Shown here: positions 37,688 to 49,055 of the stretch, piece after piece | How the letters are laid out: every line of letters begins with the position of its first letter | Numbering within the stretch: position 1 is the stretch's first letter | Source: Rhodospirillaceae bacterium | Lineage (GTDB): Bacteria > Pseudomonadota > Alphaproteobacteria > SP197 | Reading direction: 5' to 3' | Assembly (NCBI GenBank): GCA_002722885.1 | Contig: PBNE01000008.1 | Span: 17,880-81,879 of the forward strand | DNA: 64,000 nucleotides | Position numbers and translations under genes: made by a program | Notes under the pieces: generated by a model | What the model was told of the DNA's origin: nothing | What the model saw: only the letters and a program-made list of their open reading frames with translations | The model's database searches: none

Positions 37688-38953
37688 TCATTCCACCTCG
37701 AGCATGTGCCTGAGCCGCCGAACAGGCGAGGCCAGCAACACGAACGGCGCCACCAGACCACCGACCACTCCGGTCCAGATCACCGCATACATCTCGAAGG
37801 TACTGGCGAGGACACCGCCAACAGCGGCGCCAGCGGGCATCAGCAACCCGGCGACAACATGGAACGAGGCGTTGGCCCGGCCCAGGGCGGCCTGCGGCAG
37901 AACGGTCTGGCGTAAGCTAATGTCGTGGATCAGGAATCCAACGATCAGGGCATCGCTGAAGAGCTGGTGGCTGGCCAGGAGCAGGATCGAAGTCCAACCG
38001 TCATCCCAGGCCAAGGGCGCCAGAACCGCGATCACGCGGCCGCCGAACAACAGCACGATCATCGCGGGACCCAGGCACTACCAGCGGGCCACCCGCATCA
38101 CCAGAAAGGCCCCGACCAGTGCGCCGATATCGCCCAGGGCAACCAGTGTTCCGTATGTGGCCGGTGAGATCACAAGAGTGTCGATGACGAAGACCATGTA
38201 AAGGCCGCCGTAGGTGAAGCCGCCGAAGAAAGCCTCCAGCGCGGCAACCCAGAATAGAGTTCGCACGACCGGTTCGGCTAGACAGACGTCAATGCCTGCG
38301 CGCAGGTCAGACCAGATGCCACGACGGCGCTCTATCACCTGCTCAGGGGATTCGCGTGCCTTGATGCGGAACAGAAACACCGCCGAGATGAGATAGGTGA
38401 AGGCATCGGCGAGAAGTGCGAAGGGCGCGGACAGCAATTGGACCAGAACACCTGCCAGGCTGGGCCCACCGATTTCAGCGATCGCGTCGGTGGCCTCCAG
38501 CCTGGCATTGCCTTCGGTGAGACTCTTGCGGCCGATCAGGGCGGGCAGATAGGTGTTGTCGGCGATCTGGAACAGCGTGGTGAGTGCACCCATGCCGGCT
38601 GCAACGATGTAAAGCTGGACCATCGACAACAGATCAAACCACGCCGCCAGGGGCACGGTGAGCAAGAGAGCGGCGCGCAGGAGGTCGCACAGGATCAACA
38701 GCGGTCGCTTGGCATTGCGGTCGATCAGACCACCCAGAAAGAGCCCGACCAGCACACCCGGCGCCATGGAGAGTGCCGCCAGCACACCGATCTGCCAGGG
38801 TTCAGCACCGATCGTGAGCAGTGCGGCCATGGGCAGGGCCGTGCGGCTGATGCGGCTGCCGAAGGCTCTGATCGCCTGGGCCGCCCACAGGTTCATGAAG
38901 TCGCTGTGACGCCAAAGGCCCGAGGTCGGCCACCAAGTCGGAAATCGTGTCAT
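37688..38953 (-). pseudogene. MFS transporter (MFS_3, EntS-like) with an in-frame TAG
   Basis: The first 291 codons from ATG 38953 encode an MFS exporter N-half and beyond (FMNLWAAQAIRAFGSRISR, GLIDRNAKRPLLI, GNARLEATDAIAEIGGPSLA). A TAG at 38078-38080 follows MRVARW. The same frame stays open for 129 more codons, with CLGPAMIVLLFGGRV and LRQTVLPQAALGRANASFHV, a typical C-half. Full length would be 421 residues, normal for the family. A single substitution is sufficient. The truncated product lacks about the last four helices. Confidence 0.8.
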
Positions 38954-40293: not shown

Positions 40294-41463
40294 ATGCCCG
40301 TGATCAACCGCATCGCCGAATTCCACGACGCCATGACCGAATGGCGCCGCGACATCCACGCCCATCCCGAAACCGCCTTCGAGGAAACCCGCACATCCGA
40401 TATTGTGGCCAACCTGCTGGAAGAGTTCGGCATGGAGGTACACCGGGGCCTCGCCACGACCGGCGTTGTCGGCACGCTGAAGGCTGGCACCAGCGACCAC
40501 CGAGTCGGCCTGCGCGCCGACCTCGATGCGCTCCATATCCACGAAAAGAACACCTTCGATCATCGCTCGCAGAACGATGGCAAGATGCATGCCTGCGGCC
40601 ATGACGGACACACCACGATGCTGCTGGGTGCGGCGAAGTATCTGGCGGAGACGAAAAACTTCGACGGCACGATCCACTTCATCTTTCAGCCTGCCGAAGA
40701 GAACGAGGGCGGCGGCCGGGTGATGATCGAGGACGGCCTGTTCGATCTCTTCCCCTGTGACGAGATCTACGGCATGCACAACGCACCGGGCATCGAGGTC
40801 GGTAAGTTTGCCGTACGCGAGGGACCCTTCCTGGCGGCCTTCGACATCTTCGAGATTACCGTGACCGGCATCGGCACCCACGCGGCGATGCCCGACCGGG
40901 GGATCGACCCCATGATCCCCGCGGCCCAGATCATCTTGGGCCTGCAGGCAATCCCGTCACGCGAGACCTCGCCGCTCAACGCCGCGGTGGTGAGCGTGAC
41001 CCAGGTCCATGGCGGCGACACCTGGAACGTCATTCCCGATACCGTGGTGCTGCGCGGGACCTGTCGCTGGTTCGACAAGGAGGTGCGCGATCTCTTGGAG
41101 CCGGCCATGAAGCGCATCGCCGACGGCATCGCCGCGGCGCACCGTTGTTCCGCCGAGTTGCGTTACGAGCGGCGCTATCCCGCCACCGTCAACACGCCGG
41201 AACACACAGGCTTTGCCGCCGGCGTTGCCGAAAACCTGGTGGGTGCGGGAAACGTCGACCGCGACTTCCAGCCCGATATGGGATCGGAGGACTTCGCCTT
41301 CATGCTGGAGGAAAAGCCCGGCTGCTACATCCTGATCGGCAACGGCCCAGAAGAAGGCGGCTGCCTGCTCCATAATCCGCATTACGACTTCAACGACGAG
41401 GTCCTGCCGCTGGGTGCAAGCTACTGGGCACGGCTGGCCGAAAGCGCCCTATCCAAGAGCTGA
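40294..41463 (+). CDS. M20 family amidohydrolase (hippurate hydrolase/IAA-amino acid hydrolase type)
   Basis: A 389-residue metal-dependent amidohydrolase. The conserved RADLDALHIHE, MHACGHDGHTTMLLG, FQPAEENEGGGRVM (catalytic Glu pair), MHNAPG and GSEDFAFMLEEKPG are all present. The dimerisation domain occupies about 185-295. Such enzymes remove acyl or aryl groups from amino acids. AGGAGA precedes the ATG. A terminator hairpin follows at 41491. Confidence 0.92.
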   Translation: MPVINRIAEFHDAMTEWRRDIHAHPETAFEETRTSDIVANLLEEFGMEVHRGLATTGVVGTLKAGTSDHRVGLRADLDALHIHEKNTFDHRSQNDGKMHACGHDGHTTMLLGAAKYLAETKNFDGTIHFIFQPAEENEGGGRVMIEDGLFDLFPCDEIYGMHNAPGIEVGKFAVREGPFLAAFDIFEITVTGIGTHAAMPDRGIDPMIPAAQIILGLQAIPSRETSPLNAAVVSVTQVHGGDTWNVIPDTVVLRGTCRWFDKEVRDLLEPAMKRIADGIAAAHRCSAELRYERRYPATVNTPEHTGFAAGVAENLVGAGNVDRDFQPDMGSEDFAFMLEEKPGCYILIGNGPEEGGCLLHNPHYDFNDEVLPLGASYWARLAESALSKS

Positions 41464-41673: not shown

Positions 41674-43725
41674 CTAATCTGCCGCCTTCCCAGACGCCTT
41701 TGAGCCGCAGCGTGCCTGCCGGGCGGTTTCGATCTCCAGCCCGGCGGCCAGCGCCGCCTTGCGATCGATCGGAACGGGCTCGGTCTGATCAGCGCGCGGC
41801 ATGACCGAAGCGGGGTAGTAGGCGATTTTGTGTTTGCCGGGATCGAGAACCTTGTCGGGTTCCAGTTCACGCTTGTTCGCACCACGCGGCTGGCACACCC
41901 GGCCATCGACGATTTCCAGGTCACTCCACCACTTCTGCAGCGGCACGCGGCGTCCATTTCCGACTTTGTCATCCATCCGCGCAATCCAGCTCCGGCTCCA
42001 TGGCGCAGCAATTGCCAGCTTCAGAAATGCGTTGTGAACGAGCAGTCCCTCATGGTTGTAGGGGCAGGTCTTCATGCAGCGACCACAACTTGATCCCTTC
42101 GGGTTCGTGACCCGGTAACGGACACACCGTTCGACATCTGGCTTCCACATCTCATAGCCGTTGAACATGACCTTGTCGCCCCAGGAAATCGCATCAGAGG
42201 GACATTCGCGGGCGCATTTCATACATTTCGAGCACATGTCCTGCAGCCCGAAATCGACCGGACGATCGACAGCAAGGGGCAGGTCGGTCGTGATCACGGC
42301 GGACTTGAACCGTGGCCCCACGAACGGATTGAGCACCAGTTCGCCGATCCGCGAGAGCTCTCCCAGACCAGCCAGAAGAACAAGAGGTATCTGCAGTACC
42401 TGACCCTTGTAGGCGGAGTGGCAGCGCGCATCGTGGCCCAGGTCACGGAGCATGGCGGCGGCAACCGAACCGATCTGCCCACCTCTCATGTAGGCGCGGT
42501 AGCTCTGGGCGCCGCTGATCCAGTCATCGCCCGACGAACCTTCCATCGTGGCGTATCCCTGATCGAACAACATGACGATGGCATAACGATGATCGGGCTC
42601 GATTTCCTTGCCCTCTGGGTCATGCGAATACCAGGCGTAGGGCTTGGCTCCGCAGATACCGACGAGATCGGCACCAAGTGCGTAGCACAGCGATTTCACC
42701 GCTCGTGCATTGGCCTCAGGCTCGGTGAGCCCTGGAGCGTTCCGGGGTGCGGTCGCGCCATCCTGAAGCGGCAATTGCGCTTCCATCAGGACTTCCATGG
42801 CCTCGGCAAAGGGATGTTTGCCGGCAAAGCGCGGGACTTCCCGTTTCGCCTTGTCACCCAGGTCACCATGAGCGGCACGGCTGAAGAACCCTGCGCGGCT
42901 CGGCACGCGCGGGACCTCATCTTCGCGGATCAGCGTTGTCGGTTCCTTGACGCGGCGGATCCGTTCCATGGGGTAACGGCTGAGATGGGTCGGACGAAGG
43001 CTGTGTTTCAGCCTCTCCAACCCAGACACCGCGCCGCCGCGGCCGAACCAGTAACCCGGCCCGCGGTCGAAGATGCGGTGGCGTTTAGCATCAAGCGGCC
43101 GATCCGCCATGAGCGGAGCTCCAGTCGTCACGGCCGCCAGTCCAAAGGCCGCGCCCACGAAGGGATTAGTCAACTGTCCGCGTCGCACTTCGGCCAAGCC
43201 CGAGTCCACCGCAAGCTCCGCAAGGTCGACGTCGCTTGCGTCGGCAAAGTGCGCCTTTGCCGGATAACCCAACCAGCGCAGATAACCCGCTAGCGTGTTC
43301 GCGACTTCGCTGCCCCGGAGCGCGACATGGCTGTGCTCGGCGCCTTCGATCCAGGCACGCGCCGGGTTGTCCTTTTCGGGCAGGCGGGGATGTTCGATCA
43401 ACAGAACGATCGCGCTGCCGTCATCCGTGGCGCAGATCCCGACCATGGACGTATCGAGAAAGTAGGCTGCTGCCTTCATTTGTCGCGCCAGCGCTTCGGG
43501 GCTGTGATCCAGTGGCGCGCGCTCTGTCGCCACATCGCCATCGCGCAGACTGGAAGCCAGTTCAAGGAATGGTTCGGCGCAGCGCGCCAACAAAGCGTCG
43601 TCGCGCACCTCTGCAGTGGATTTGGGTGGTGCGCTGTGCTCGCCAACTCCATCGCTGCGATCAATAAATTCCATGGGGAACGACCCGAGTTCGGGAGGCC
43701 GCTTGCGGACAGACAAGAACTTCAT
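41674..43725 (-). CDS. Cytosolic reductive-dehalogenase-like iron-sulfur protein
   Basis: A 683-residue protein. Two ferredoxin-type clusters are clear: Cys498-X2-Cys501-X2-Cys504-X3-Cys508-Pro, and Cys534-X12-Cys547-X2-Cys550-X3-Cys554-Pro, the spacing of RdhA enzymes. Upstream lies a nitroreductase-fold cobalamin-binding-like domain (about 335-495). A related segment occurs once more at about 85-215 without clusters. There is no Tat signal or membrane anchor, so it should be cytosolic, like the catabolic enzymes of Nitratireductor and Comamonas. No reductase domain is fused. Those enzymes remove halogens from phenols using cobalamin; the substrate here is unknown. Its start overlaps the TetR gene by 4 bases (ATGA). 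Confidence 0.75.
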   Translation of the reverse strand: MKFLSVRKRPPELGSFPMEFIDRSDGVGEHSAPPKSTAEVRDDALLARCAEPFLELASSLRDGDVATERAPLDHSPEALARQMKAAAYFLDTSMVGICATDDGSAIVLLIEHPRLPEKDNPARAWIEGAEHSHVALRGSEVANTLAGYLRWLGYPAKAHFADASDVDLAELAVDSGLAEVRRGQLTNPFVGAAFGLAAVTTGAPLMADRPLDAKRHRIFDRGPGYWFGRGGAVSGLERLKHSLRPTHLSRYPMERIRRVKEPTTLIREDEVPRVPSRAGFFSRAAHGDLGDKAKREVPRFAGKHPFAEAMEVLMEAQLPLQDGATAPRNAPGLTEPEANARAVKSLCYALGADLVGICGAKPYAWYSHDPEGKEIEPDHRYAIVMLFDQGYATMEGSSGDDWISGAQSYRAYMRGGQIGSVAAAMLRDLGHDARCHSAYKGQVLQIPLVLLAGLGELSRIGELVLNPFVGPRFKSAVITTDLPLAVDRPVDFGLQDMCSKCMKCARECPSDAISWGDKVMFNGYEMWKPDVERCVRYRVTNPKGSSCGRCMKTCPYNHEGLLVHNAFLKLAIAAPWSRSWIARMDDKVGNGRRVPLQKWWSDLEIVDGRVCQPRGANKRELEPDKVLDPGKHKIAYYPASVMPRADQTEPVPIDRKAALAAGLEIETARQARCGSKASGKAAD

Positions 43726-44030
43726 GCCGCGGCCTCAGACGAGTTCGCTTGCGGCAGGCCGCAGTGTCGCGCGTTGCGTATCGTTCCGAACCGCTCGAAG
43801 CCCTGGCGTGCGACATCGGCCAGCAGTTCGTCGCGGTCACGAAAATGCCTGTAGAGAGCTGCCGCACTCACCCCTGCGGAACGGGTAGCCTGAGCAAACG
43901 TAAAGCCGCCGGTCCCTTTGGTTCCGATCAGCTCCAGGGCTGCCTGAATCAGGGCCTCGCGCAGGTTGCCGTGGTGATAACCACGACGCGAACCCTCGTC
44001 TCCATCGTCCTTTTTGCCTGACCAAGCCAT
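43722..44030 (-). CDS. Truncated TetR family regulator (DNA-binding domain only)
   Basis: A 102-residue protein. The N-terminal GYHHGNLREALIQAALELIG and the HTH segment FTFAQATRSAGVSAAALYRH followed by FRDRDELLADVARQGFE are a normal TetR DNA-binding domain. A full protein would continue about 100 more residues as a ligand-binding dimer domain; here only TIRNARHCGLPQANSSEAAA follows. The stop overlaps the start of the dehalogenase-like gene, so the truncation may come from a deletion that fused the operon. Whether it still dimerises and binds DNA is doubtful. Confidence 0.75.
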   Translation of the reverse strand: MAWSGKKDDGDEGSRRGYHHGNLREALIQAALELIGTKGTGGFTFAQATRSAGVSAAALYRHFRDRDELLADVARQGFERFGTIRNARHCGLPQANSSEAAA

Positions 44031-44092: not shown

Positions 44093-44572
44093 CTAGCCGT
44101 CGAGCTTCGGGACATCGGGAAGCTGGCCGAACTCGATGCCATCGTCGACCAGCTCCTGCGCCTGTTCCTTGGTCGCCTGACCGTAGATGTTGCGCTTTTC
44201 GGCTTCGCCGTAGTGAATCTTCTTGGCTTCGTCGGCAAACTTTGTGCCGACGTTGTCGAAGTTCTGCTCCACGTGGTCCCTCACCGCCCGCATCATTGCC
44301 ATTATCTGACCGGCCCGCTCCTTCTGGTGGGCGAGCATCACGGAATCGCCCGACGGAGCGGCAGGAACCTCGGCAGCGGGTGTGCTGACACCCTTGGCCG
44401 ACGACTTGGTCGTGGAGACATTGGGGGCCATCAGGGTCTTTTCGATCGACGTGTCGCCGCAGACCGGGCACGCGATCTGGCCCGCTTCAGCCTGGACCTG
44501 AAACGTCGCATTGTCGGCAAACCAGCCTTCAAAGGCGTGGTCGTTGCCACATTTCACGTCAAACACGATCAT
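44093..44572 (-). CDS. DUF1178 family protein
   Basis: A 159-residue protein with a zinc-ribbon-like N-terminus: MIVFDVKCGNDHAFEGWFAD and CPVCGDTSIEKTLMAP. The C-terminal half has the family segment YGEAEKRNIYGQATKEQAQE, then ELVDDGIEF. The function of the family is not established. In alphaproteobacteria it usually follows a nitrilase and glutaredoxin gene; here a methyltransferase lies between. Confidence 0.88.
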   Translation of the reverse strand: MIVFDVKCGNDHAFEGWFADNATFQVQAEAGQIACPVCGDTSIEKTLMAPNVSTTKSSAKGVSTPAAEVPAAPSGDSVMLAHQKERAGQIMAMMRAVRDHVEQNFDNVGTKFADEAKKIHYGEAEKRNIYGQATKEQAQELVDDGIEFGQLPDVPKLDG

Positions 44573-46388: not shown

Positions 46389-46912
46389 TTAGGTGGTCTC
46401 GCGTACGACCCTTGCAAGGGTTGTGACGGCGACGTGATCGGCCCCGGCCCGGCGCAACGCCTTGGCACAGGCATCCACGGTGGCGCCGGTGGTCATGACA
46501 TCATTGACCACGAAGACACGGCGCCCCTTCAGGTGCTCGGCATACCGTTCACGCACCGCGATCGCACCGTGCAGGTTTTCGATGCGCTGACGCCGGTTCA
46601 GCCCGCCTTGTGACGGCGTGGCGCGGCGAGGTCGTTGTAGCGCAAGGCGGAACGGGCCCGAACGAACGCGGGCGGATGGGCAAGGCAGCCGCCGCAGAGC
46701 GCGTCCGGTCCCCCGTCATGGCCGAAGGGCAGGCCGCAGGTGGCACATTGAGGATCGGACACCAGCTCCAAGCCGGACCAGCAATCGGGGCACAGGGCGC
46801 CGAGCTGATCGACAATCACGCCGCAACCAAGGCAGCGTAGCGGCAGAACCGCATCGACCACGCGACGGTCGATCCGGGAGACCGGAGCAAGAGCAGCAAA
46901 ACCCGTCATCAT
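46389..46912 (-). pseudogene. comF: comF, internal deletion with frameshift
   Basis: From ATG 46912 the frame encodes a ComF zinc-ribbon region (CLGCG, LCPDCW, CATCGLPFG, CGGC) and FVRARSALRYNDLAAPRR. It then stops at 46598. In another frame downstream, the C-terminal part QGGLNRRQRIENLHGAIAV and VFVVNDVMTTGATVDAC runs to TAA 46389. About 80-90 residues of the phosphoribosyltransferase middle are missing at the junction. The PRPP loop also has Asn in place of the first Asp of the usual DD. ComF supports DNA uptake in competent bacteria; this copy should be inactive. Confidence 0.82.
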
Positions 46913-46986
46913 GCTATCGGGCGACAAGTGGCCGGCACCGTCAACAGCGATTGCCCTCGCTGCGTGAAGCGGGCACAAGACCGGCC

Positions 46987-47868: not shown

Positions 47869-47928
47869 CGTTGCCTTCTGCTGAGATTTCGAACCGTCTA
47901 CGCTGAGGACGTTCTTGGAGATGCTGTC

Positions 47929-49055
47929 ATGACGGAACATGAACTCGACCATCTGATCAGCCCAGCCGACCGTGCAGCCGCATCTTCGAGCGCCACTGGA
48001 TGGCAATCGGCTTTGCACATCAGGTCGCAGGCACGAGCGACGTCCACCCCTTCACGCTGGTCGACATTCCACTGGTCATGATGCGCGGCGACGACGGGAT
48101 CGTGCACGTATTTCACAACATCTGCCCCTATGACGCCTATCCGGTGGTCTTTGATGATGCCTCCGGGCTCAAGGAGATCATCGCGCCCTAACATGGATGG
48201 CGTTACGACCTCCGGGGTCGATTGACGCGTATGCACTACTGGGACGGAACAGCTGAGCCCAGCCTGTCAGTTCTGAACGGTCGCAACGGGAACCTAATCG
48301 AAGTCCGATCGGTGATATGGCACGGCATTGTGTTCGTCGATCTTTCTGGCGAAGCCAGGGACCACAACGATTACATCGCCCCCCTTGAACGCTGCCTTGA
48401 GCAGTATGATCTCGACGACATGCAGCCAGACCACGATGCACGGGGGCGACCGGTGACTGCAGGGTTCGATGTGCCCTGCAACTGGAAGACCTTCACGGAA
48501 AACGACTGCACCAACGGGCTGCGCCAGTTAACCGTTCATGACATTTACCGCTTCTCGCCGGACATCCCGAGGGTCGATGGCTCCGGCACCAAGCGTTCGT
48601 TCGACATCATGGACAAACACCTTCTTGGCTATGGCTATCGTTTCGAGGATATGGCCCGCACCTACCCCGAGGGTCCGCTGCCACACCTGTGGCGCGACGG
48701 CGCACCTGATTGCGGCTTCTTTCTGAACCTGTTTCCTAACTTCTCGATTTCCGTGATGGCTCATTCCATCGGCGCGTGGTGCATGATGCCCGACGGCGCC
48801 GACATGACGCGCATGGTCACCGCCGATTTCTTTCGGCCCGAGGCAACGACGAACGAGCGTTTCCGGCCATAAAAGCAGATGCTGAACCATCCCTTCGCCC
48901 ACGCCGGCCTGGAGGATGGCCGGATCGTCAAGGCGATCCAGATGGCCCGCCGGTCACTGGTCTGTCGCCAGCCGTTCTTCTCGCCGTTCTGGGGCGCGAT
49001 CCACCATCACGTTCTCAATCTCGTGGTAGACGCCCTGGAAGGATCGCCGCACTAA
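47929..49055 (+). pseudogene. Rieske-type aromatic ring-hydroxylating oxygenase alpha subunit, broken
   Basis: ATG 47929 opens MTEHELDHLISPADRA, but the oxygenase continues in another frame from about 47985 (IFERHWMAIGFAHQVAG), so there is a frameshift near 47971-47983. A TAA at 48189-48191 falls inside the second Rieske ligand region (IIAP-stop-HGWRYDLRGRLT). A second TAA at 48870-48872 follows ERFRP; the frame then runs to TAA 49053. The cluster ligands are also degenerate: CPY instead of CxH, and Ala where the second Cys is expected. Three independent lesions make this a firm pseudogene. The end overlaps the stop of convergent mutT. Confidence 0.88.

Follow-up and report, generated by a model that had tools for sequence, protein, structure and literature searches.

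A predicted cytosolic reductive dehalogenase of the NpRdhA kind at a truncated tetR gene in a Rhodospirillaceae genome

Introduction

The closest described system to the protein considered here is NpRdhA of Nitratireductor pacificus pht-3B (structures 4RAS, 6ZXU, 6ZXX, 6ZY0 and 6ZY1), a reductive dehalogenase (RdhA) without a fused reductase. Other catabolic RdhAs, including BhbA and JtRdhA, carry a fused reductase. In the account of Fisher et al. (PMC10463259), a vestigial duplication marks the catabolic RdhAs, and every one of them characterised by 2023 has ortho-halophenols as its substrates; JtRdhA is described there as accepting bromo- and iodophenols and not the chlorinated ones tested. 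The NpRdhA pocket as described by Halliwell et al. (PMC7565698) has a hydrophobic side made up of F290, F310, P311, A419 and M423, and substrate binding is accompanied by small shifts of N452 and F291. The residue at position 423 is presented in the same source as hydrophobic and orienting, not catalytic. A different type of RDase that also lacks a Tat signal has its Fe-S motifs around residues 290-340 and is represented by Ros_A3X954 (PMC13101508).

The DNA analysed here, termed the window, is the whole stretch of 64,000 nucleotides from a Rhodospirillaceae bacterium, and the gene of interest lies at 41674-43725 on the minus strand. A preliminary description made from the sequence alone had read this gene as a cytosolic RdhA-type dehalogenase of 683 residues, with two iron-sulfur motifs, no Tat signal and no membrane anchor. 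Considered as a whole, the locus is very probably best explained, on sequence comparison and a predicted structure, by a cytosolic dehalogenase of the NpRdhA kind whose gene was inserted in a tetR gene, the resulting allele having probably been exchanged between species.

Results and Discussion

Identity and anatomy of the window protein

The gene and its parts were as follows:
41674..43725, minus strand: rdhA, predicted catabolic reductive dehalogenase of 683 residues that has no fused reductase (open reading frame, profiles, NpRdhA alignment, Foldseek)
43090..43587, minus strand: vestigial repeat of the cobalamin-domain half, residues 47-212, lacking 4Fe-4S motifs (internal local alignment)
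42253..42807, minus strand: cobalamin-domain half predicted to be catalytic (residues 307-491), carrying S408, Y412 and K474 (NpRdhA alignment)
42499..42501, minus strand: Tyr409, the pocket position equivalent to Met423 of NpRdhA (Tyr in 4 of 90 aligned rows)
42055..42234, minus strand: two [4Fe-4S] motifs (residues 498-557) with R538 between them (profiles, Pfam, alignment)

The rdhA open reading frame was intact, with an ATG start and no internal stops. The TIGR02486 “reductive dehalogenase” profile matched the window protein at 194.5 bits (cut-off 160.35) and NpRdhA itself (L124) at 171.8 bits. In a phmmer search NpRdhA was the best solved match, over query residues 1-678 (E 6.9e-191), and the respiratory PceA matched far more weakly (E 9.8e-23). 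A structure model built with 25 relatives (mean pLDDT 82.6, pTM 0.90) matched the NpRdhA chains in Foldseek with TM-scores, normalised by query length, of 0.91-0.93 at 46-48% identity. Pfam returned no dehalogenase domain for the window protein, which is no counter-evidence because NpRdhA likewise yields Fer4 families only.

No Tat-like motif, the signal used to recognise respiratory RdhAs, occurred in the first 60 residues. The highest mean hydropathy over 19 residues was 1.58 (residues 189-207); the model shows a strand at residues 194-201, so the protein has no clear membrane helix. A C-terminal flavin/2Fe-2S reductase domain (phthalate-dioxygenase-type) was absent from the window protein by both Pfam and alignment. 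The enzyme type, length, iron-sulfur motifs and lack of export or anchoring signals given in the preliminary description were thus borne out, and the profile search and structure prediction that it had proposed both pointed to RdhA.

The N-terminal half of the protein repeats the catalytic half (internal local alignment score 227, against at most 53 in 200 shuffles). Both Fe-S motifs sit in the C-terminal half: the first, CSKCMKCARECP, spans residues 498-509 and the second, C534...CGRCMKTC, ends at residue 554. In total, the window protein and NpRdhA were alike over their whole length (47% identity) and had in common the duplicated architecture, both Fe-S motifs, the four residues S422, Y426, K488 and R552 (NpRdhA numbering) and the lack of a fused reductase. 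In the reductase-fused catabolic RdhAs (BhbA and JtRdhA, and those of G001 and G006 from the same genus as the window genome), the RdhA part shows this duplication and the catalytic set as well. Identity to the window protein was 44% for L005 and 42% for L006, both fused proteins, and fused open frames were 1071-1095 residues long as opposed to 683 for the window protein, which lacks the C-terminal reductase. Fold, residues and duplication are the basis on which assignment of the window gene to the catabolic cobalamin reductive dehalogenases, and among them to the reductase-less NpRdhA kind with that predicted activity, is supported.

An epoxide reduction of the QueG kind had also been considered in the preliminary description. 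QueG (epoxyqueuosine reductase) shares the class-III cobalamin fold with the window protein, and TIGR00276 gave a weak match of 25 bits. Score and structure nevertheless differ: the TIGR00276 cut-off is 200 bits, the QueG chains reached TM-scores of 0.20-0.22, and the QueG match in the search that had returned NpRdhA was near noise level (E 0.042). The window genome also encodes a separate QueG (450 bits). With the dehalogenase profile above its cut-off and the reductive-dehalogenase catalytic set present, a role as QueG or as another class-III cobalamin reductase is extremely improbable and was rejected.

Distribution and phylogeny of related proteins

A pattern scan of 84,980 species, with one genome each, gave at least 592 matches; among the matches listed, 529 encode some relative (tblastn E 0.001). 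The best 80 of these 529 were kept. They came from several phyla, were 45-58% identical to the window protein, and had at most 137 residues beyond the match in each, with three running off their contig. Near-full-length matches accounted for 72 of the 80 kept loci (45.5-53.7% identity), and the overall top value of 57.8% came from a partial match. The 42 pattern matches on viral contigs yielded no confirmed case. Judged from these sequences, the NpRdhA-like family is known and widespread, not the small group that had been supposed. The window protein adds an intact but distant member, at 47% identity to NpRdhA and no more than 53.7% to any near-full-length protein among the 80 kept loci.

In the tree, a starred set of 56 rows contained the window protein, which was placed on its own branch (length 0.7) with unsure nearest neighbours. 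NpRdhA fell in a separate starred group of seven, and two fused rows fell in a set of 22. In this tree the reductase-less proteins did not form one clade, and the window protein stood apart from the group of NpRdhA. The tree was built without L009 (an empty outgroup row); its outgroup branches were of extreme length, which makes the root and the placement of the single-module proteins unsure.

Two of the NpRdhA-like proteins consist of a single module of about 450 residues (L007:851-2194 from G022 and L015:1465-2832 from G016). These grouped with each other near the base of the tree, in an unsure order. Both were 51% identical to the window protein over the shared part and had the same catalytic set and a Tyr at position 423, and both lack the vestigial N-terminal half that the window protein has.

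Two congeners of the window genome, G001 (L005) and G006 (L004), encode the reductase-fused form instead, in an open frame of 1095 residues. The window protein being reductase-less, one genus holds both subclasses.

No neighbourhood was shared across the 80 kept loci, L026-L028 and the window; the commonest neighbouring family, short-chain dehydrogenases, occurred at 15 loci, the window not being one of them.

The insertion site and the tetR remnant

Three features define the site at which rdhA lies:
40294..41463, plus strand: M20 amidohydrolase gene, a long-standing syntenic neighbour at the insertion site (genus comparison)
43722..44030, minus strand: tetR remnant of 81 conserved tetR codons and 21 unrelated codons, with its TGA overlapping the rdhA ATG (Pfam, alignments)
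44093..44572, minus strand: DUF1178 gene, likewise a long-standing syntenic neighbour (genus comparison)

In the congeners G002 and G005 the gene order was M20 amidohydrolase, DUF2852 (PF11014), a full TetR of 214 residues and DUF1178. The rest of tetR past codon 81, and DUF2852, had no match in the window. A DUF1178 gene was present in 10 of 10 genus genomes and a close match to the M20 gene (77-100%) in six of 10. RdhA matches (E 0.001) were found in five of 10: the window genome, G009, G001 and G006 (both fused), and G004 (partial). It would follow that rdhA arrived between the M20 amidohydrolase and DUF1178 genes and replaced the second part of tetR together with the DUF2852 gene.

A 4-base ATGA overlap joins rdhA to the upstream frame, which has a TetR_N domain (PF00440, 4.3e-12). 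The coupling to a TetR-type DNA-binding domain seen in the preliminary description is therefore present, and the frame that carries the domain is a truncated remnant. Pfam found only TetR_N in it, and the TetR match stops at residue 81 of 214, whereas the full copy in G002 contains TetR_N and TetR_C_33 (at 102-202).

The overlap and the intact TetR_N would also suit a short but functional DNA-binding protein regulating the coupled rdhA. This is very unlikely: the C-terminal domain is lost, the complete genes that G002 and G005 have at this site mark the window copy as a truncation, the helix-turn-helix part is altered where G009 retains the full-length residue, and this TetR was matched in the window only among 84 stretches. 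The same gene is independently broken in G003 (L142:7483-7788), in a different manner, by stops; since no RdhA match occurs in this genome, tetR can be lost at the site without harm to the host. A functional TetR partner was accordingly rejected, as was a TetR C-terminus hidden by a frameshift, the TetR match ending at 43788 and rdhA starting at 43725. By sequence comparison, the TetR frame is what is left of the gene at the insertion site and not one half of a regulator-enzyme pair. Starting inside the stop codon of the stump, rdhA probably uses the transcription and translation start of the stump.

Guilt by association was rejected as a guide to function. The M20, nitrilase, glutaredoxin and DUF1178 neighbours also occur in G002 and G005, which have no RdhA match, and the neighbours are therefore uninformative on the substrate.

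A near-identical allele in a congener

The congener G009 showed the same tetR-rdhA junction and tail as the window. Its rdhA comprises the first 175 codons only, at a contig end, and 519 of 525 bases (98.9%) were identical to the window gene over this part. Identity in the flanks was as follows: DUF1178, 369/473 (78.0%); methyltransferase, 397/580 (68.4%); nitrilase, 671/849 (79.0%); and GrxC glutaredoxin, 195/261 (74.7%). Through tetR, successive blocks were 95.2, 98.4, 90.0, 98.3 and 75.0% identical, with a break at about 43970. As rdhA is 98.9% identical beside four flanking genes of 68-79% identity, the tetR::rdhA allele (stump and rdhA) probably moved between species, and we infer homologous recombination as the probable route.

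A chimeric contig or cross-binned DNA, instead of interspecies transfer, could also give rise to such identity; the identical stretch reaches the end of the G009 contig, and the listed contamination is 8.66% for the window genome (G000) and 6% for G009. Against this, the near-identical gene and those of 68-79% identity lie on a single contig of 4993 bases, and through tetR the identity varies from block to block without a clean step. An assembly artefact of this kind is considered rather unlikely, and exchange of the allele between species is preferred.

Within the 89 comparable codons of the remnant, the window and G009 differed silently at 10 and with a change of residue at six. The window remnant differed at Q33, T35 and L45 of the TetR-like part (from RRGYHHG) and at G68 just after it; at all four positions G009 agrees with the full-length TetRs. 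These numbers are small and suggest, at the sequence level, that the window copy of tetR is decaying. Over 174 codons of rdhA there were three silent and two residue-changing differences, too few to show selection.

Catalytic residues and the substrate pocket

In the alignment, S422, Y426, K488 and R552 of NpRdhA corresponded to S408, Y412, K474 and R538 of the window protein, so that the Tyr, Lys and Arg positions singled out for checking in the preliminary description are all occupied as in NpRdhA. The four positions were invariant in 90 of 90 aligned rows, the window included, in an alignment whose 80 kept rows were gathered by conserved-core patterns and ranked by likeness to the window protein, a choice biased towards conservation and towards proteins without a reductase. 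The 90 rows comprised the window, the 80 kept loci and nine further rows, three of the nine being duplicates (pairs L002/L027, L003/L026 and L015/L028).

Phenylalanines F280, F281 and F300 of the window protein occupy NpRdhA positions 290, 291 and 310. Five pocket positions differed from NpRdhA: K307V, P311A, A419G, M423Y and N452A (V297, A301, G405, Y409 and A438 in the window protein). Three of the replacements were common among the 90 aligned rows: V307 (21), A311 (67) and G419 (84). The other two were rare, with Y423 in four rows (three distinct proteins, namely the window protein and the two single-module proteins) and A452 in three rows. These two rare changes may shift the substrate range, which keeps a new substrate, an option raised in the preliminary description, possible. 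The pocket changes allow a direct test of substrate selection in a family of bioremediation interest.

Proposed mechanism and substrate

By analogy with NpRdhA and JtRdhA, the window enzyme would be a monomer with base-off cobalamin in its C-terminal half, and its two [4Fe-4S] clusters would carry electrons from a ferredoxin to the cobalt. S408, K474 and R538 would hold an ortho-halogenated phenol with its halogen bound to cobalt, and Y412 would donate the proton. On the same analogy, ortho-halogenated phenols are the most likely substrates.

Three ring-cleavage families were searched for, PcaH (TIGR02422), HmgA (TIGR01015) and LigB (PF02900), and none had a match in the window genome; control genomes were positive for each. 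The lack of matches to these three families weakens a carbon-catabolic role, and we infer that detoxification of halogenated phenols is no less likely than carbon catabolism.

The enzyme could instead have the NpRdhA fold and a substrate other than a simple ortho-halophenol, either another halogenated aromatic compound or a non-halogenated one, in a pocket reshaped by Tyr409, which is bulkier and polar, and by the loss of Asn452. The rarity of both replacements, the long branch of the window protein and the lack of matches to the three ring-cleavage families would fit, as would the want of a close relative among the 80 kept loci, the 175-codon fragment in G009 being the exception. The complete phenol-binding and proton-donating set, the orienting and not catalytic part ascribed to position 423 (PMC7565698) and the uniform ortho-halophenol activity of the catabolic RdhAs covered by PMC10463259 speak against it, and such a substrate is regarded as improbable, with ortho-halogenated phenols preferred. 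Similarly doubtful is a fuller version in which a lone lineage, its pocket reshaped by Tyr409 and Ala438, serves to detoxify a different halogenated aromatic compound rather than to gain carbon from it and, once rdhA had landed in a resident tetR and taken over its start, spread by homologous recombination as a ready-expressed allele of tetR stump and rdhA.

Cofactor and electron supply

CobN was found above its cut-off in the window genome (1654.7 bits), which fits de novo synthesis of cobalamin. NpRdhA is followed downstream by genes for a pyridine nucleotide-disulphide-type reductase and for 2Fe-2S and 4Fe-4S ferredoxins, in agreement with the account in PMC10463259. The window rdhA differs in being without such a linked reductase and two ferredoxins: used as queries against 84 stretches (the 80 kept loci, L026, L027, L029 and the window), many of them short, the NpRdhA partner genes had no match in the window and, besides their own locus, matched only L084 and L094.

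Searches of the 84 stretches with a ferredoxin and a reductase of the window genome likewise gave no match in the window, a weak test that also missed the known partners of NpRdhA. The ferredoxin query matched L063 and L072 and the reductase query L072 and L095. A 2Fe-2S ferredoxin motif scan of the neighbours, which missed the ferredoxin of NpRdhA itself, gave three candidates and none in the window. Across the reductase-less proteins compared by sequence, linked partners as in NpRdhA look exceptional.

As none was found beside rdhA, a ferredoxin or reductase encoded elsewhere in the genome would serve as donor. Nine Fer2 matches were found elsewhere in the window genome and are candidate donors; one is a reductase that stands alone and has 37% identity to the reductase portion of the fused protein L005. 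The window locus shows how an rdhA can become established with neither a regulator of its own nor a redox partner linked to it.

Other genes in the window

Three further genes in the window were interrupted or shortened. An MFS transporter gene (37688-38953, minus strand) is interrupted by an in-frame stop at a point where its G005 homologue reads through. A ring-hydroxylating oxygenase alpha-subunit gene (about 47870-48872, plus strand) has a stop within its apparent Rieske part. The gene at 46392-46921 (minus strand), which we take to be comF-like, is missing 76 residues from its middle part relative to G009 and shows a change of frame; the G009 copy has DZR_2 and phosphoribosyltransferase domains by Pfam.
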